A stretch of DNA of 64,000 nt from Tepidamorphus gemmatus (GTDB taxonomy: Bacteria > Pseudomonadota > Alphaproteobacteria > Rhizobiales > Tepidamorphaceae), in assembly GCF_004346195.1 (NCBI RefSeq), contig NZ_SMAK01000003.1:248001-312000 (forward strand). The letters are read 5' to 3'. A program made the translations under genes and the position numbers. Shown here in pieces: positions 1 to 7,339 of this stretch (positions within the stretch are counted from its first letter, which is position 1; each line of letters starts with the position of its first letter). The notes beneath the pieces were generated by a model. It did no database searches. It had not been told where the DNA came from and saw only the letters and a list, made by a program, of their open reading frames with translations.

Positions 1-426
1 CCGCTCATAGTGCTTGGCGCGGCGCCTGAGATGCGTTGCCCGGGTCTCCTCGTCCATGTCGAGATCGTCGGACAGCGGACCCGACCACAGGCACGAGCAG
101 ACATGCATGTTCCAGGTCAGTGCCGTCGCGCCGCAATAGCGGCCGATCTCAGCAGCGGTCGTCGCATAGGCACGGAAGCCAGCGCCGAGACCGCCATGCT
201 CCTTGGGCACGCTGATGGCGAGCAGCCCCGTCTCATGCAGGTCCTTGTAGTTCTCGGTCGGGAACGTCGCGTCGCGATCGTATCTGGCCGCGCGCGGGGC
301 GAACCGCGCCTTGCCGATCCGGCGCGCCAGCGCGTTCAGCTCGGCTTCCGCCTCGTCCAGCCGGAAGGCCGACGGATCGAAGATCGGCGCGTCGACGTCG
401 ATCTGGTCGAGGTCCATGACGTTCAT
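1..426 (-). CDS. Acyl-CoA dehydrogenase-fold flavoprotein, N-terminal part (cut by window edge)
   Basis: The first 142 codons are present, from ATG at 426; the rest lies beyond the left edge. The visible part reads as the N-terminal helical domain of the acyl-CoA dehydrogenase superfamily, with segments such as LHETGLLAISVPKEHGGLG and ATALTWNMHVCS. The start overlaps the stop of the upstream hydrolase gene by 4 nt (ATGA), so the two are probably translationally coupled. This fold also covers the oxygenase component of two-component flavin monooxygenases, such as the C2 component of p-hydroxyphenylacetate hydroxylase. Because C1-type flavin reductases are encoded next door, an oxygenase role is more attractive here than fatty-acid oxidation. 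That is inference: the flavin-site and catalytic residues lie outside the window. Confidence 0.75.
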   Translation of the reverse strand, partial: MNVMDLDQIDVDAPIFDPSAFRLDEAEAELNALARRIGKARFAPRAARYDRDATFPTENYKDLHETGLLAISVPKEHGGLGAGFRAYATTAAEIGRYCGATALTWNMHVCSCLWSGPLSDDLDMDEETRATHLRRRAKHYER

Positions 427-1175
427 CGGGCGTCCTCCCGTATCGTGTCCAGAAACCGCCGCACCGCGTCGGCGAAGCGGTCGGGGCATTCGAGCGGGGC
501 CATGTGGCCGGTCTTCTCGAGCACCTCGAGCCGGGCGCCCGGGATGATCTCGGCCATGCGCATCATCGTCTTCAGCGGCGCATTGCGGTCCTCGTCGCCG
601 GCGATCAGCAGGGTCGGCACGGCGATCGCGCCGAGTTCGTCGCGCCGGTTGAAGGTCACCAGGCATTCGAGCCCTGCCCGGTAGCTCGCCTCGGGCAGCT
701 CCGCCAGCAGCCGCTCGACGGTCACCGCAGCGGTTGCATCCGGTGCCGAGCCGAGCAGTTCGCCGGGCGCGGCCGCGGCCAGCTCGGCCATCGTCCGACC
801 CTGATCGAGCGGGCCGAGCCGCGCCTTCAGGAAGGCCTGCTGGAACGATCTGTCGCGGCTGCCGAATACCGGTGTCGTGCCCGACAGGATCAGCGCCGCC
901 AGCCGGTCGGGATGACGGTGCGCGAGCTCCTGGGCGACCATTCCGCCGATCGAATGGCCGAGCGGGATCGCCCGCGCGATGCCGCGCGCGTCGAGATCGG
1001 CGACGATGCGGTCGGCGAGGCTCTCGAACGTGAACGGACCATCGAGCGGCCTGCCGCCATAGCCCGGATAGTCCCAGGCGATGATCGGGATGGCGCCGCC
1101 GAGCCGTCCGACCACCGCATCGAACATCCGGCAGTCGGAGCCGACCCCGCTGAGCAGGACAAGCGGAGCGCTCAC
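423..1175 (-). CDS. Alpha/beta-hydrolase of a ring-cleavage operon
   Basis: A 250-residue alpha/beta-hydrolase. The nucleophile elbow GHSIGG lies near residue 95, the probable acid is in AGDED and the catalytic His is in KTGHMAPLE near the C terminus. The length and layout fit small hydrolases of aromatic degradation such as enol-lactonases and NicD-type N-formylmaleamate deformylases. It sits between the NicX-like dioxygenase gene (4-nt overlap upstream) and the acyl-CoA-dehydrogenase-like gene (4-nt overlap downstream). By analogy with nicX/nicD it would hydrolyse the ring-opened product. Another possibility is deformylation of N-formylkynurenine, because no classical KynB is visible near kynA. 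The fold is secure; the substrate is not. Confidence 0.85.
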   Translation of the reverse strand: MSAPLVLLSGVGSDCRMFDAVVGRLGGAIPIIAWDYPGYGGRPLDGPFTFESLADRIVADLDARGIARAIPLGHSIGGMVAQELAHRHPDRLAALILSGTTPVFGSRDRSFQQAFLKARLGPLDQGRTMAELAAAAPGELLGSAPDATAAVTVERLLAELPEASYRAGLECLVTFNRRDELGAIAVPTLLIAGDEDRNAPLKTMMRMAEIIPGARLEVLEKTGHMAPLECPDRFADAVRRFLDTIREDAR

Positions 1176-2218
1176 GATGCGGCCTCCACCAGCCGCCCCT
1201 CCTCGACCACGGCGACGCCGTCGAGACGGATCGTGCAGTTGCGGGTCGGCAGGTCGAAATGACCCTTGGTGAACCGACCCGCGAACTCGTTCGCGCCGGT
1301 CGAGAACAGGAAATTGCCGGCGAACGCCCGGATCTCGGTGCCGTTGGTATCGCGCTGGTCGTACATGGCAAGCGCCTCGTAGCGGGCGCCCTCGTTCAGC
1401 CCCCAGCCGACATGGCTGACGGCATAGGCATTGCGGTCGCCCCAGGCGGCGAAGTAGCGACGCATCAGCTCGGCATCGGTGCCGCTGCCGGCGATGTCGA
1501 CCACATAGTCGTCGGCGATGGTGAGCCGGACCGGGCTTTCCAGATAGCGCTTGAAGGTCAGGTTGACATCACCGGCATCGAGAACCAGCGTGCCGTTGAC
1601 CGAACCGGCCTTCGGGAACGAGACGACGATGCCGCCCGGCCAGTGGGCGACCGTCCCCGGCCGGTCGGTGTAGCCCCAGACACCGGCGGTCGCAGCCTCG
1701 CGCATGTTGACGGTAAGATCGGTGCCGGCCCTGGAGACGACGCGCATCTCGCTGGCGCGGCGCACGGCCTTGACCGCGGCCTTGACCCTCGCCTCCATCG
1801 AGGGATGCGGCACCAGCCGTTCCAGCGCCTCGGGATGCTCGTTGGAGATCATCATGATGCGCGCCCCGCCGGAGATGATCTCCGGCAGTTCCGGCGCGTG
1901 CAGCAGCCCCTCCAGCGTGCAGTCGACGACGAGCGAGGCCGCCTTCAGCCCCGCGATCGCCGCGCGCTGGCCCGACAGCGCGCAGGAGGCGCCGGTGGAG
2001 CGCACCGGAACCGGTGCGTCCTGCGGCGGGGTCGGCACGACGATGTGGAAGACGGTGGCACCAAGGCGCGCGAGCGCCAGCTCGCAGAGATGGACGTTGA
2101 GGGCACGCGACTGGGTTTCGGACAGAATGACCGCCATCTCTCCCGGCGCGACCCTGCAGAGCTCGAACACGCGCGTGAAGGCGTCGATCCACTTCGCCTC
2201 GATCCGATCGCTCAGCAT
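1172..2218 (-). CDS. NicX-like ring-cleaving dioxygenase (2,5-dihydroxypyridine 5,6-dioxygenase family)
   Basis: A 348-residue protein related to the M29 aminopeptidase fold but resembling NicX/Hpo, the non-heme Fe(II) enzyme that opens 2,5-dihydroxypyridine to N-formylmaleamate. It shows the family blocks HWPGG, GTLVLDAGD, VSHVGWGLN and GNFLFSTG. The likely iron ligands are present: His269 in SHVGWG and the His320-x-Asp322 pair in GHFDLPTRN. The length matches NicX (about 350). It is the first gene of a leftward, 4-nt-overlapping operon with a hydrolase and an acyl-CoA-dehydrogenase-fold protein. A TACAAT -10-like box (2288-2293, minus strand) and a motif shared with the kynA upstream region precede it. 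The true substrate may be a hydroxypyridine or a hydroxylated aminobenzoate. Confidence 0.8.
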   Translation of the reverse strand: MLSDRIEAKWIDAFTRVFELCRVAPGEMAVILSETQSRALNVHLCELALARLGATVFHIVVPTPPQDAPVPVRSTGASCALSGQRAAIAGLKAASLVVDCTLEGLLHAPELPEIISGGARIMMISNEHPEALERLVPHPSMEARVKAAVKAVRRASEMRVVSRAGTDLTVNMREAATAGVWGYTDRPGTVAHWPGGIVVSFPKAGSVNGTLVLDAGDVNLTFKRYLESPVRLTIADDYVVDIAGSGTDAELMRRYFAAWGDRNAYAVSHVGWGLNEGARYEALAMYDQRDTNGTEIRAFAGNFLFSTGANEFAGRFTKGHFDLPTRNCTIRLDGVAVVEEGRLVEAAS

Positions 2219-2300: not shown

Positions 2301-2330
2301 TGATAATTTGAGGTTTGAAGTATTGGTGCC
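2301..2330. promoter_or_regulatory. Candidate operator in the nicX-like / flavin reductase divergent promoter
   Basis: The 148-bp gap between the two divergent start codons contains an AT-rich island unusual for this window. The core ATTTGAGGTTTGAAGTA (2306-2322) recurs with one mismatch upstream of kynA (4909-4925), and flanking TGAT and GGTGCC are shared as well. The core can be read as two direct heptamers (TTTGAGG, TTTGAAG) or as a weak dyad. On the minus strand a TACAAT box (2288-2293) would place this motif over the -35 region of the dioxygenase promoter. A MarR-type domain is encoded by the adjacent rightward gene and is a candidate ligand. Confidence 0.55.
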
Positions 2331-2366
2331 GTCACGCGGCGCCCCGGAGCAACCGCGGAGATCCGC

Positions 2367-3311
2367 ATGAGCGATCCAGTCGCCTTCCGCATGGCGCTCG
2401 GGCGCTTCGTCACCGGCGTCACGGTGGTGACGACGCTCGACGCGGCCGGCGCGCCGATCGGGCTCACGGCCAACTCGTTCAACTCGGTGTCGCTCGATCC
2501 GCCGCTGGTGCTGTGGAGCCTGTCGCGCCGCTCGATGAACCTGCCGGTGTTCGAGGCGGCATCGCATTTCGCCATCAACGTCCTGTCGATCGACCAGAAG
2601 CACCTGTCGGACCGCTTTGCCCGGCCGGTGGAGGACCGCTTCCGGGATGTCGACTGGACGCCGGGTGCCGGCGGCGTTCCGGTTCTGCGTGATTGCGCCG
2701 CGGTGTTCGAATGTGCCAGCCACGAGCGCTACGAGGGCGGCGACCACGTCATCTTCATCGGTCGGGTCGAGCGGTTCGACCATCAGAACCGGGTGCCGCT
2801 CGCCTATCACGCCGGCGCCTATGCGACGACGGCACGCTACACCGGTACCTTCACCGAAGGCCCGTTCACCGATGACTACCTGCTCTATCTGCTGGCGCGC
2901 GCCTCGAGTCTTGCCTCCGGCGAATTCCACGCCGAGCTTGCCGAACTGGGTGTTCCGGTACCGGTGTGGCGGGTGCTGGCAATCCTGGCTGGCGCGGAGG
3001 GCGGCCGGACCATCGGCGAGATCGCTGCTCGGGCGCTCCTGAAGCAGCCGACCGCGACCAGGATCGTGGACCGCATGCAGGAACAGGGCTACGTGGTGCG
3101 CTGCCCCTCGTCCGACGACCGGCGCCGCGTCGTCGTGCAGCTCACCGCGCTCGGCAGCGAGCTCGTCGCCGACCTGATCGCGCGGGCGCAGGCGCACGAG
3201 ACGGCGCTGCTCGCCACCCAGACGCCCGCCGAGGCGGAGATCCTGAAGCGCGTGCTTGGCCAGCTCATCGACCGGCTGGTGGAGCGTCGCGACGGACGGG
3301 TGCCGCGCTGA
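2367..3311 (+). CDS. Flavin reductase fused to a MarR-type winged helix (C1-like), copy 1
   Basis: A 314-residue two-domain protein. Residues about 1-160 form a flavin reductase domain of the HpaC/DIM6 type, with FVTGVTVVTT, GLTANSFNSVSLDPP and the GGDHVIFIGRVE segment. Residues about 170-314 form a MarR-like domain whose wing keeps the DDRRRVVVQLT signature. Length and order match the reductase (C1) of Acinetobacter p-hydroxyphenylacetate hydroxylase, in which the MarR-like part senses substrate and relieves autoinhibition. It would supply reduced flavin to a partner oxygenase, probably the acyl-CoA-dehydrogenase-fold protein at the left edge. The intact wing leaves open a second role in DNA binding. 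GGAG lies 6 nt before the ATG. Confidence 0.85.
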   Translation: MSDPVAFRMALGRFVTGVTVVTTLDAAGAPIGLTANSFNSVSLDPPLVLWSLSRRSMNLPVFEAASHFAINVLSIDQKHLSDRFARPVEDRFRDVDWTPGAGGVPVLRDCAAVFECASHERYEGGDHVIFIGRVERFDHQNRVPLAYHAGAYATTARYTGTFTEGPFTDDYLLYLLARASSLASGEFHAELAELGVPVPVWRVLAILAGAEGGRTIGEIAARALLKQPTATRIVDRMQEQGYVVRCPSSDDRRRVVVQLTALGSELVADLIARAQAHETALLATQTPAEAEILKRVLGQLIDRLVERRDGRVPR

Positions 3312-3404
3312 CCGGCCGCTGCCAATGGTGGCGTCGCGGGACCGCCGCGCTATAGTCCGCCGGCCGCCGCCGCGACGGATGGTGCAACAGGAAAGACGAA
3401 GCCG

Positions 3405-3827
3405 ATGCTGACGCGACGCTCGACCAAGCTCACCCATGCCGGCGCGCTTGCCGCGCTCGCTGCCTGCGTGGCCCGGGCAGAGGCGATGGGCGTGCCGCAA
3501 TGCATCGCTGTCGTCGATGCCTCGGGCGTGCTGCTCGCCTTCGTGCGCATGGATGGCGCGCGGTTCCTGTCCAACGAGTCGGCGATCGCCAAGGCGACGA
3601 GCGCCGCATCCACCCGCATGCCCACCTCGCGGCTTCCTGTCGACATGGAGGTGAAGCTTGCCCTGGCAACAGGCGGCAGGCTGACCAATCTCAAGGGCGG
3701 AGTGCCGATCATCGTTGAGGGCGAGTGCATCGGCGGCATCGGCGTCGGTTCCGGCACCGGGTCGCAGGACCTGGAGGTCGCCCGCGCCGGCCTCGCCGCG
3801 ATCGGCGCCGAAGACCAGACGGCCTGA
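3405..3827 (+). CDS. GlcG/HbpS-family protein
   Basis: A 140-residue protein of the GlcG/HbpS (DUF336) family. Family features include the ALAACVARAEAMGVPQCIAVVD segment near the N terminus (quoted here as ALAACVARAEAMG followed by VPQCIAVVD), a central MDGARFLS and the C-terminal glycine-rich GECIGGIGVGSGTGSQDLEVA. Family members are small cofactor- or heme-binding proteins often found in aromatic or glycolate catabolic operons; few have a known reaction. No signal peptide is visible, so it is probably cytoplasmic. It lies between two paralogous flavin reductase-MarR genes on the same strand, 93 nt after the first and 13 nt before the second, and is probably co-transcribed. Its role in the route is unknown. 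Confidence 0.75.
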   Translation: MLTRRSTKLTHAGALAALAACVARAEAMGVPQCIAVVDASGVLLAFVRMDGARFLSNESAIAKATSAASTRMPTSRLPVDMEVKLALATGGRLTNLKGGVPIIVEGECIGGIGVGSGTGSQDLEVARAGLAAIGAEDQTA

Positions 3828-3840
3828 CAAGACCCAGCAG

Positions 3841-4809
3841 ATGAGCGCCACGTCCGCCGCGCCTGCCCCGGGTTCGCAGGACAGCTCCGGCGACAGCCGC
3901 GAGCTGCGCCGCGCGCTCGGCCAGTTCGCCACCGGGGTGACGGTCGTCACCACCCGCGATCCCGCCAGTGGCCACGCCGTCGGCATGACCGCCAATTCCT
4001 TCTCCTCGGTCTCGCTCGAACCGCCGCTCATCCTGTGGTCGATCACCCGTACCGCACGCAGCCTGCCGGCCTTTCTGGCCGCGTCGCATTTCGCGGTGAA
4101 CGTGCTGTCGGCCGAACAGATCGACCTGTCGGTGCGCTTCGCGCGCCCCGCCGAGGACAGGTTCGCGGGCATTGCCTGGCGGGAAGGTCTCGGGGGCGCC
4201 CCGCTGTTGCCCAATCTGTCGGCCCTCTTCGAGTGTCGCCGGGTTGCCAGCCACGAGGGCGGCGACCACATCATCCTTGTCGGTAAGGTCGAGCGGTTCG
4301 CGCGTTTCGAGCGTCCGGGCCTCGTCTTTGCCCAGGGTCGCTACGGGCTGGTGGCCGACCATCCGATGCAGCAGCCGGCCGCCGCGCCGGAGTCCGGTCG
4401 CGATCCCCATCCCTATGACGATTTCCTGATCCCGCTGCTGTTCCGCGCCTACGAGACACTGTTTGCGGCCTTTTCCGAGGAACTGGAGGCGGCCGGCACG
4501 AGCGGGCCTGAGATGCGCATCCTCGCCGTGCTGTCGATCCGGCCGGGGGCCAATTTCGACCGGCTGACCCGCGCCGCCTATCTCGGCGAACAGACGACCG
4601 AGGCGGCGCTGGCGCGGCTGATTGGCGCCGGCCATGTCGCCGGCGACCGCCGGACAGGGCTCATGCTGACCGAGTCCGGCACCGCCCGCCTCGCCTGGCT
4701 GATCCGCATCGCCGAGCGGTTCGAGGCGGGCCGCATGGGCGAGCTCGGCCCCGGCGAGGTCGACCGCCTGAAGGCGATGCTGCGCCGTCTCGCAGGCACC
4801 GGCGGCTGA
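3841..4809 (+). CDS. Flavin reductase fused to a MarR-like domain, copy 2
   Basis: A 322-residue paralogue of the gene at 2367, with the same domain order. The flavin reductase part (about residues 20-180) has FATGVTVVTT, GMTANSFSSVSLEPP and a GGDHIILVGKVE segment. The C-terminal part (about 195-322) is recognisable as MarR-like, but the wing is short: GDRRTGLMLTESG replaces the longer DDRR-type wing of copy 1. This copy may therefore keep only the ligand-sensing role seen in C1-type reductases. It begins 13 nt after the GlcG-like gene at an ATG with only a weak ribosome-binding site, suggesting translation linked to the upstream gene. A second two-component monooxygenase, or a division of labour between the copies, is possible. 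Confidence 0.85.
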   Translation: MSATSAAPAPGSQDSSGDSRELRRALGQFATGVTVVTTRDPASGHAVGMTANSFSSVSLEPPLILWSITRTARSLPAFLAASHFAVNVLSAEQIDLSVRFARPAEDRFAGIAWREGLGGAPLLPNLSALFECRRVASHEGGDHIILVGKVERFARFERPGLVFAQGRYGLVADHPMQQPAAAPESGRDPHPYDDFLIPLLFRAYETLFAAFSEELEAAGTSGPEMRILAVLSIRPGANFDRLTRAAYLGEQTTEAALARLIGAGHVAGDRRTGLMLTESGTARLAWLIRIAERFEAGRMGELGPGEVDRLKAMLRRLAGTGG

Positions 4810-4904
4810 CAGCGGACGGTTCGCCCGGGCTGCCCCCATCCCAAAGGGCCGCTGTCTGGCGTCGGGAATCACGGGGTGACCTGTGCGCGGGATCGCGGCG
4901 GCGA

Positions 4905-4935
4905 TGATATTTGAGGCTTGAAGTACATCGGTGCC
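4905..4935. promoter_or_regulatory. Second copy of the shared candidate operator, upstream of kynA
   Basis: The core ATTTGAGGCTTGAAGTA (4909-4925) differs at one of 17 positions from the element in the divergent promoter at 2306-2322. TGAT before it and GGTGCC after it are also shared, with 1-2 nt spacing differences. It lies about 100 nt before the kynA start, in the 217-bp gap after the second reductase-MarR gene. Conservation of a non-coding stretch this long at two promoters of one catabolic cluster points to a common regulator. Confidence 0.55.
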
Positions 4936-4981
4936 AGTGCGACCTTTCGCACCATGCCGAAGAACCGGGCAGCCGGCAGCC

Positions 4982-5013
4982 CCGGCGGTGTACCGAGCCG
5001 GCGGTGTACCGAG
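4982..5013 (+). repeat. Perfect 16-bp tandem duplication before kynA
   Basis: The unit CCGGCGGTGTACCGAG occurs twice without a gap (4982-4997 and 4998-5013). The second copy runs into the GAGAAGG ribosome-binding site of kynA, whose ATG is at 5027. Gain or loss of a unit would change leader length but not the start codon. Confidence 0.8.
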
Positions 5014-5026
5014 AAGGACATCCGCG

Positions 5027-5845
5027 ATGACGACCGGTGGGATCGAGACCGACTTCCGCGACCGGATGAGCTACGGGGACTACCTGCAGCTCGATCTGCT
5101 GTTGTCCGCGCAGACACCGCTGTCGCCGGAGCATGACGAACTGCTGTTCATCACCATCCACCAGGTCAAGGAGCTGTGGATGAAGCTGATGAACCACGAA
5201 CTCGACGCCGCCATCCGCTTCATCCGCGCCGATACCCTGCAGCCCTCGTTCAAGTGCCTTGCCCGGGTCGGGCGCATCCAGGAGCAGCTGATCCAGGCCT
5301 GGGACGTGCTGTCGACGATGACGCCGGCCGATTATCTCGCCTTCCGGTCCCATCTTGGCGCCTCGTCCGGGTTTCAGTCGTGGCAGTATCGGCTGCTCGA
5401 GTTCAAGCTCGGCGCCAAGAACGCCGGCATGCTGGAACCGCATCGTCATCGGCCCGACATCCTTGCCATGCTCGAGGCCGCCTACGCGGCGCCCAGCATC
5501 TACGACGAGGCGCTCAGCGTGCTCGCCCGGCGCGGTTTTCCTGTTCCGGTCGAGGTGCTCGCCCGCGACGTCCGCCGGCCCTATGTGAAGAATGACGCAG
5601 TCGAGGCGATCTGGCTGGAAATCTACCGCAACCCCTCACGCTGGTTCGACCTCTACGAGCTCGCCGAGGAGCTGGTCGACATCGAGGACGCGTTCCAGCG
5701 CTGGCGCTTCCGCCACATGAAGACCGTGGAACGCATCATCGGCATGCGCGCCGGCACCGGCGGCTCGTCCGGCGTGCCCTATCTGAAGCGCGCCCTCGAC
5801 CAGTCGTTCTTCCCCGAACTCTGGTCGGTCAGGACGCTGATCTGA
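5027..5845 (+). CDS. kynA: Tryptophan 2,3-dioxygenase
   Basis: A 272-residue cytosolic heme enzyme that oxidises L-tryptophan to N-formylkynurenine, the first step of the kynurenine route. Family motifs are clear: [14 protein letters not shown] with the distal-side His45, the [10 protein letters not shown] segment carrying the Arg that holds the substrate carboxylate, [12 protein letters not shown] with the probable proximal heme His, and the GTGGSSG loop near the C terminus. The length is typical for bacterial TDO (about 270-280). The ATG at 5027 was chosen because GAGAAGG lies 8 nt upstream and the family N terminus begins here; longer in-frame starts run into the tandem repeat. No kynurenine formamidase of the KynB type is adjacent. 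The upstream motif suggests co-regulation with the ring-cleavage operon. Confidence 0.95.
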
Positions 5846-6184: not shown

Positions 6185-7339
6185 ATGCTCGACCTGAAGG
6201 CGCACTTCTCGCGCTTCCTGATGTGCGAGCAGGGTCGGCTGCATTTCGCCGCGCACAGTCATCATCCCTGGCCGGATGTGACCCGCAACGCGCAGCTCGA
6301 GGCGTGGGACACCGCCGCCCGGCTGATCGATGACAAGTGGGACTACGTGCTGGGGCCGCTTCTCGACGAGGTTCGCCGTCATGTCGCAGGGCATCTGAAC
6401 CTGCCGGATCCGGCAACGCTGGTCTTCGCGCCGAACACGCACGAGCTGCTGAACCGCCTCCTGTCCTGTTTTCCGGCCGGCCGCCGGGTGCGGATCGTCG
6501 CCAGCGACGGCGAGTTCCACTCCTTCTCCCGCCAGATCGCCCGGCTCGCCGAGGACGGCCTCGTCGATCCCGTCGTCGTGGCGGTCGAACCCTTCGAGAC
6601 GTTCCCCGACCGCCTGGCGGAGGCGGCGCGCGCCCGAGCCGACCTCGTTTTCGTCAGCCAGGTGTTCTTCAACTCGGGCTTCGCTTGGGAGGATTTTGCC
6701 GCACTCGCCGCAGCGGCCGGCGAAGCGATGGTGGTGATCGACGGCTATCACGGCTTTCTCGCCCGCCCGACCGACCTGTCCGGCGTCGCCGGGCGCTGCT
6801 TCTATCTCGCCGGCGGCTACAAGTATGCGATGTCGGGCGAGGGAGTCTGCTTCCTGCACTGCCCGCCAGGCTGGGCGCCGCGCCCGCGCGACACCGGCTG
6901 GTTTGCCGCATTCGGTGCGCTGACCGCGAGCGGCGACGGTCGCGTCGCCTATCCCGCCGACGGCTGGCGGTTCATGGGGGCGACGTTCGACCCCACCGGC
7001 CTGTTCCGGATGCGGGCGGCGATGCGCTGGCTCGCCGACCAGGGACTCGATGCCGCCCGCATCCATGCCCATGCCCGCGCACTCGGCGACCGCTTCCTCG
7101 CCGCCCTGCCGCTTGCCGGTCTCACGACCGAGCGCCTCCTCGTCGATCCGTCCCGTCATGCGATCGGCAACTTCCTGACATTCGATCTCGACGGCGCGGC
7201 GGCGCTCTATCGCCGCCTGCACGATGCCGGCATCCTCACCGACGTGCGCGGCCGCCGGCTGCGCTTCGGCTTCGGCCTCTACCAGACGGCCGGCGATGTC
7301 GATGCGCTGATCGCCCGGATGGCTACCCTTTCCGCGTGA
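6185..7339 (+). CDS. Kynureninase-like class V PLP enzyme
   Basis: A 384-residue fold-type I PLP protein. The PLP Lys is probably Lys213 in LAGGYKYAMSGEG, and Asp186 in VVIDGYHG would pair with the pyridine nitrogen. The arrangement, including SDGEFHSFSRQ, the GYKY motif and a C-terminal LRFGFGLYQT block, parallels kynureninase (GCTYKYLNGGPG and MRFGFTPLYT in the Pseudomonas enzyme), though overall identity looks moderate. The likely reaction is hydrolysis of kynurenine, or a ring-substituted form, to an anthranilate plus alanine. Position directly after kynA on the same strand supports this. A related cysteine-desulfurase-like activity cannot be excluded. The ATG at 6185 begins the conserved region; no strong ribosome-binding site is visible. 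Confidence 0.7.
   Translation: MLDLKAHFSRFLMCEQGRLHFAAHSHHPWPDVTRNAQLEAWDTAARLIDDKWDYVLGPLLDEVRRHVAGHLNLPDPATLVFAPNTHELLNRLLSCFPAGRRVRIVASDGEFHSFSRQIARLAEDGLVDPVVVAVEPFETFPDRLAEAARARADLVFVSQVFFNSGFAWEDFAALAAAAGEAMVVIDGYHGFLARPTDLSGVAGRCFYLAGGYKYAMSGEGVCFLHCPPGWAPRPRDTGWFAAFGALTASGDGRVAYPADGWRFMGATFDPTGLFRMRAAMRWLADQGLDAARIHAHARALGDRFLAALPLAGLTTERLLVDPSRHAIGNFLTFDLDGAAALYRRLHDAGILTDVRGRRLRFGFGLYQTAGDVDALIARMATLSA

Follow-up and report, generated by a model that had tools for sequence, protein, structure and literature searches.

KynR, a regulator of the Lrp/AsnC type, controls the kyn genes in Pseudomonas and Burkholderia. The nic ring-degradation genes stand under MarR proteins, NicR in Pseudomonas putida and BpsR in Bordetella, and BpsR is described as being released by 6-hydroxynicotinate (PMC6837509). 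In AbHpaC (C1), the reductase of 4-hydroxyphenylacetate 3-hydroxylase, an N-terminal flavin reductase is followed by a C-terminal MarR domain, which is described as self-inhibitory, the inhibition being relieved by ligand (PMC10816480). The 2-aminobenzoyl-CoA (anthranilate) pathway of Azoarcus evansii is reported to include a CoA ligase and a flavin monooxygenase/reductase (PMC4539516). Here we analyzed 64,000 nucleotides of Tepidamorphus gemmatus (contig NZ_SMAK01000003.1, positions 248,001 to 312,000; hereafter the window), in which nearly identical 17-mers precede a nicX-like ring-cleavage gene and kynA, the tryptophan 2,3-dioxygenase gene. The nicX-like gene diverges from a gene for a flavin reductase with a C-terminal MarR domain (flavin reductase 1). 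In the reading that we favor, with a probability of about 0.55, the 17-mer is a MarR-family operator, a stand-alone MarR encoded in an anthranilate-type cluster on contig 5 controls kynA and perhaps nicX, and the fusion controls nicX and itself; the link between kynA and nicX would then probably lie where two MarR regulators meet, and not be the work of one.

As with NicR and BpsR, a MarR protein is proposed to control ring-degradation genes of the nic type; the differences are its fusion to a flavin reductase and the presence in the cluster of genes for an acyl-CoA ligase and an acyl-CoA-dehydrogenase-fold protein. The fusion has the domain order of AbHpaC, whose structure (5zc2) is the top PDB sequence match and covers almost all of flavin reductase 1 (E 6e-52); unlike AbHpaC, however, flavin reductase 1 retains its wing and recognition helix, and a conserved promoter block lies alongside in the 11 fused nicX loci seen. 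The contig-5 cluster shares the CoA ligase and the flavin monooxygenase/reductase with the A. evansii pathway and differs from it by a MarR gene and by palindromes at two promoters, shared with kynA. Dedicated control of kynurenine genes would be common to KynR and the system proposed here, whereas the regulator family and the operator differ. No such regulon, operator or DNA-binding fusion surfaced in word searches of openly licensed PubMed Central papers.

The pair of 17-mers had been reported from a reading of the sequence alone (the sequence-only reading) and was borne out: the copies lie on the same strand and agree at 16 of 17 positions (Table 1). Both look like MarR-family operators in being short, AT-rich palindromes that lie in promoter gaps; they are imperfect, four of six pairs matching, with ATTTGA-GGTT-TGAAGT at nicX and ATTTGA-GGCT-TGAAGT at kynA, which gives the shared form ATTTGA-GGYT-TGAAGT; a perfect palindrome is absent from the window copies, and dyad and inverted-repeat scans of both gaps returned weak pairs only, none of them on the 17-mer. 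The flanks described as shared, TGATA and GGTGCC, are present at both copies but can be aligned only via small indels. A probable -35 region had been placed at the nicX copy, and this was not recovered by a sigma-70 pattern scan, which gave no promoter in the nicX gap and none in the kynA gap.

Throughout the 3.78-Mb genome there is no further match to the 17-mer at two or fewer mismatches, and exactly one more, on contig 5, at three or fewer. This search ruled out the 17-mer as a common genome-wide word. Two matches within three mismatches occurred in none of 100 window shuffles, the test being post hoc. Although 16 or more of 17 positions agree in 624 pairs of window 17-mers (overlapping ones counted apart), only two pairs are at least 50% A+T, one of which is the kynA/nicX pair, and local alignment of the two gaps gave a score of 36, compared with 17.0 ± 2.3 and a maximum of 27 in 120 shuffles. 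The pair thus exceeds what is expected by chance for AT-rich intergenic DNA. Matches at two or fewer mismatches were also found in 112 of the 397 genomes of the order; because reversed control columns hold many matches too, these are probably mostly chance.

At nicX, the 17-mer is the right end of a 33-bp conserved block. The block was defined by column conservation over 25 non-redundant sequences and called present at 20 or more of 30 positions, and the loci compared were the best 80 of 470 confirmed nicX loci, obtained with seven aligned nicX proteins as query. In 37 of these 80, nicX has a homologue of the reductase-1 MarR domain no more than 1.4 kb upstream. Comparison of the nicX gap among relatives, which had been proposed as a check, showed that the block is kept together with the adjacent MarR: of the 38 sequences in which a related MarR is adjacent (the window counted), 31 have it before nicX, versus 1 of 43 without such a MarR. 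This contrast is partly one between lineages, since many of the MarR-less loci are Bradyrhizobium, and in a few of these loci the DNA before nicX is too short for a judgment. By architecture, the block is present in all nine fused loci, in 15 of 16 with separate reductase and MarR genes, in five of ten with MarR alone and in one of two with the reductase on the opposite strand. The window and the sister genus (G004), both fused, also carry it at nicX, bringing the fused loci to 11. The lone block without an adjacent MarR is in a locus that ends at a contig edge, 250 bases before nicX (L142); one further match (L161, 20/30) is doubtful and looks like a chance AT-rich match. Seven MarR-adjacent loci are without the block (L126, L129, L134, L144, L145, L155 and L179), two of them, L126 and L145, having a partial one.

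The block was also found away from this arrangement. In a genome of the window's family (G005), it lies, at 25/30, between a TRAP-transporter gene and a MarR-domain relative (58%; L088:6692-8503), and the nicX relative of that genome stands elsewhere, without the block. Where the cluster is split (L166; L210 of G235), a second copy with both halves precedes the hydrolase/oxygenase operon. The block is absent from ten loci in which a flavin reductase, fused or otherwise, stands away from nicX, the highest score being 19/30. In a MarR tree of 42 rows the fused state needs two changes, each of them required by well supported branches, and none of 200 bootstrap trees needs only one; the program used flags long branches in other parts of the tree. 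According to the tree, either MarR and reductase became fused twice, or they were fused once and subsequently separated, and both fused lineages retain the same 33-bp block. As judged from these comparisons, the block travels with the nicX-linked MarR, fused or not.

The only three-mismatch match of the 17-mer led to the cluster on contig 5. It consists of a row of genes for a monooxygenase/reductase (PRK08255 family, above the cut-off), a short-chain dehydrogenase/reductase (SDR), the stand-alone MarR, an acyl-CoA dehydrogenase and a benzoate-CoA-ligase-family enzyme, and a RidA-like protein was identified by eye. By analogy with the described pathway, its substrate would be of the 2-aminobenzoyl-CoA (anthranilate) type. 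One palindrome ends about 29 bases upstream of the monooxygenase start and another 24 bases upstream of the SDR start. Sequence identity between the contig-5 MarR and the reductase-1 domain is 23% (for four orthologues, 20-27%), and the two recognition helices differ (SNGNVT versus KQPTAT). Its relatives are present in all 14 genomes asked, which had been chosen for kynA, nicX or motif matches. A de novo dyad search was performed on 13 orthologue loci fetched by protein, with the genome itself left out; it was restricted to intergenic DNA because a whole-locus search was swamped by codon structure. The dyad ATTTTA-N4-TAAAAT was found in 8 of the 13 loci, compared with 0.2 in shuffles.

The kynA gap is without the left half of the block, TATGAAAAG, and its best block score is 15/30 versus 25/30 in the nicX gap, whereas the second block copies of both split-cluster genomes and the block of G005 retain this half. 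In the nearest kynA relatives, G300 (70%) and G365 (67%), comparison of the kynA gap revealed like sites, TTTAAATTTAAA and TTTAAGCTTAAA, at about the same place, roughly 106 bases upstream of the match; TTTAAGCTTAAA, seen in relatives, is a perfect palindrome. Both genomes also carry a contig-5-type MarR (65 and 63%). Among ten genomes asked, two of which gave weak partial matches, nicX was not detected in G300, G365, G293, G207 and G098. In addition, the site precedes long-type kynA in G023 and G134, and the palindrome at 15 or more of 17 positions occurs in 8 of 35 fetched kynA loci versus 0 of 140 shuffles. A perfect 16-base tandem repeat, two copies of CCGGCGGTGTACCGAG, stands directly before the kynA start (4982-5013).

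With an earlier operator matrix, 12 of 40 fetched kynA loci scored above 20 anywhere in the locus, the largest shuffle value being 15.6. Because the loci behind that matrix had often been fetched by motif similarity, we preferred a symmetric matrix built from seven distinct sites at contig-5 MarR orthologue loci, to which the genomes chosen for motif matches (G293, G207 and G098) contributed no training site. In the window, the kynA site has the highest score with this matrix (22.3), followed by the nicX site (17.1); the third-best score is 9.5. The two top values were reached by 0 and 1 of 100 shuffles, respectively. The contig-5 sites score 27.7 and 27.2, and a site on contig 2 scores 28.5. 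Among 20 fetched MarR loci (of 34 matches), values above 13 were obtained only at reductase 1 (17.1) and the contig-5 MarR (27.2). The nicX blocks of other genomes score 6-19, and therefore the nicX score alone proves no second regulator there. Five places in the genome are within two mismatches of WTTTNARGCTTRAAGTA: kynA, nicX, two on contig 5 (before the monooxygenase/reductase gene and before the SDR-MarR genes) and one on contig 2 (L275:471-2757, G000:C2). The last precedes an ABC solute-binding gene that follows an amidohydrolase gene and whose product is a possible component of an aminobenzoate transporter.

kynA itself occurs in one of the best 80 nicX loci, that of Bradyrhizobium sp. 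S69 (L175), where kynU and kynA diverge from a palindrome and are followed by kynB, ABC-transporter-like genes (by eye) and the nicX cluster, beyond which a PRK08255-type gene, truncated where the locus stops, has its own palindrome. The palindrome at 16 or more of 17 positions is found in 20 of these 80 loci. In 17 of the 20 it is one and the same site, located at 18.6-18.7 kb (in L180, at 17.0 kb), and in the one of those 17 that was read (L168, Bradyrhizobium-type) it precedes a PRK08255-type gene adjoining the nicX cluster.

These results support, through site conservation, the proposal of the sequence-only reading that a conserved MarR-type element links tryptophan opening with ring-cleavage genes. 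In the two-regulator model, a dimer of the contig-5 MarR would sit on the kynA palindrome and be released by a pathway intermediate, for example anthranilate or its CoA ester, both the ligand and the sign of control being presumed; this MarR would hold a tryptophan/anthranilate regulon that includes kynA. The nicX 17-mer would belong, as the right end of the longer block, to the nicX-linked MarR, which, being fused to flavin reductase 1, would govern both the promoter of its own gene and the ring-cleavage operon that diverges from it. Since the sites of the two regulators overlap at nicX, nicX may answer to both, and kynA would answer to the contig-5 MarR, possibly with cross-binding by the nicX-linked MarR. 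The analysis shows that the sites are conserved, that they co-occur with the regulators and which genes they accompany; binding, ligands and repression are inferred.

Several observations weigh against this reading. The eight palindrome-bearing orthologue loci span about five genera and are therefore not eight independent cases; no site was found within 1.5 kb of the contig-5 MarR orthologue of the sister genus G004 (79%), nor near the orthologue in 5 of 14 genomes; and a site at -84 to -119 is present in only 5 of 40 fetched kynA loci. The reversed-pattern control gave 4 matches versus 6 real ones at two or fewer mismatches and 24 versus 11 at three or fewer. Because site counts are not enriched over control, the argument rests on the genes that the sites precede. 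Finally, the kynA and nicX sites are closer to each other than either is to the consensus, which could mean one shared regulator.

A single regulator was indeed what the sequence-only reading had proposed, with the MarR domain of flavin reductase 1 as the nearest candidate. That this domain alone binds both copies and ties kynA to the ring-cleavage operon appears unlikely to us, although its recognition helix and wing are intact, its MarR_2 score is the best of the genome, the block stands at nicX in all 11 fused loci seen, the 17-mers agree at 16 of 17 positions, and kynA lies downstream of the reductase-1 gene. As a binder at nicX it gained support, the block being kept and moving with the MarR; as the likely binder at kynA it did not, because the kynA copy is without TATGAAAAG, which persists where the block is duplicated and in G005, because the site fits the contig-5 MarR operator, and because such sites precede kynA in two genomes in which nicX was not detected. 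One regulator for both genes is in line with both sites topping the contig-5 matrix in the window and is opposed by the absence of the full block at kynA.

The converse arrangement, with the contig-5 MarR on both copies and the fused domain as only an allosteric brake, as in the Acinetobacter HpaC reductase, strikes us as improbable. The kynA and nicX sites are the two best window matches of its matrix, and in AbHpaC the MarR domain is described as acting on the reductase (PMC10816480); yet the 33-bp block is kept with an adjacent MarR, fused or not, is nearly absent without it, and moves along with it in G005. Moreover, the matrix score of the nicX site lies within the range of those of blocks in other genomes, and the DNA-reading parts are retained in the fused domain but not in flavin reductase 2 or 5zc2. 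Least credible, in our view, is that the copies pair by chance or are left over from a duplication of promoter DNA, with no common function. The 624 window pairs and the common GGTGCC and TGATA flanks, as would remain after a duplication, could be read in this way, but AT-rich pairs are nearly absent (two), the gap alignment beats all 120 shuffles, and each site has conserved counterparts at like places in other genomes.

Table 1. Sites and genes of the window, and the MarR gene of contig 5
Feature	Position	Strand	Remarks
17-mer copy 1, ATTTGAGGTTTGAAGTA	2306-2322	+	In nicX/flavin-reductase-1 gap 2219-2366; right end of 33-bp block
17-mer copy 2, ATTTGAGGCTTGAAGTA	4909-4925	+	In flavin-reductase-2/kynA gap 4810-5026; 102-118 bases 5' of kynA ATG
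33-bp conserved block, TATTGTATGAAAAGTGATAATTTGAGGTTTGAA	2287..2319	.	Consensus TRTTATATGAAAAGGAATATTTTTANNNNTRAA; candidate operator of nicX-linked MarR
Stand-alone MarR	G000:C5:73787-74293		In 2-aminobenzoyl-CoA-type (anthranilate) cluster, contig 5
Acyl-CoA-dehydrogenase-fold protein, N-terminal part	1..426	-	Continues beyond window; then acyl-CoA ligase and TRAP transporter
Alpha/beta hydrolase	423..1175	-	Pfam; codirectional with nicX
nicX-like ring-cleavage dioxygenase	1172..2218	-	Divergent from flavin reductase 1; PDB sequence match 7cn3, E 7e-60
Flavin reductase 1 with C-terminal MarR domain (about 2862-3311)	2367..3311	+	Pfam PF01613, PF12802
HbpS-like protein	3405..3827	+	Pfam; between both flavin reductase genes
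Flavin reductase 2, degenerate MarR-like C-terminus	3841..4809	+	Wing shortened in alignment; no Pfam MarR match
kynA, tryptophan 2,3-dioxygenase	5027..5845	+	NCBIfam TIGR03036 above cut-off
Class-V aminotransferase-fold enzyme	6185..7339	+	Pfam; beside kynA in 4 other genomes

Among the genes of the window, the structure matched by the nicX-like protein (7cn3) is a 2,5-dihydroxypyridine 5,6-dioxygenase, and the acyl-CoA-dehydrogenase-fold protein is probably the oxygenase of a two-component flavin monooxygenase. The MarR domain of flavin reductase 1 is the strongest of 34 PF12802 matches in the genome, and its recognition helix, KQPTATRIVDRM, and DRR wing, DDRRRVVVQLT, both intact, align with those of stand-alone MarRs. 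At what we regard as even odds, flavin reductase 1 is a trigger enzyme, which would feed reduced flavin to the oxygenase and switch the divergent promoter via its DNA-binding MarR domain, perhaps by ligand or flavin state. Neither flavin reductase reached the cut-off of 340 of NCBIfam NF045919 (221 bits for reductase 1 and 234 bits for reductase 2). Flavin reductase 2 probably does not bind DNA and was rejected as a candidate, having no Pfam MarR match, a degenerate DNA-binding domain and a short wing; its tail resembles 5zc2 in the shortened wing, next to a neighbor in which the wing is intact.

Relatives of the class-V aminotransferase-fold enzyme are linked to kynA in other genomes (L237:6916-8079, L238:7531-8688, L239:1593-2747 and L240:13337-14491). 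In G300 and G365 the gene is divergent from kynA, and the promoter region with the palindrome is common to both. A kynureninase model gave no match for the window protein or for the L238 relative, and the protein is a possible non-orthologous substitute for kynureninase.

Taken in this way, the sites would define a testable regulon in Alphaproteobacteria, comprising tryptophan opening and 2-aminobenzoyl-CoA-type (anthranilate) degradation together with a transporter gene and the nicX-type cluster. Two neighboring genes of the window contrast two reductase-fused MarR domains, that of reductase 1 seemingly DNA-binding and that of reductase 2 apparently stripped of DNA-binding features. The regulon may also hint at the substrate class of the nicX-type ring-cleavage cluster.

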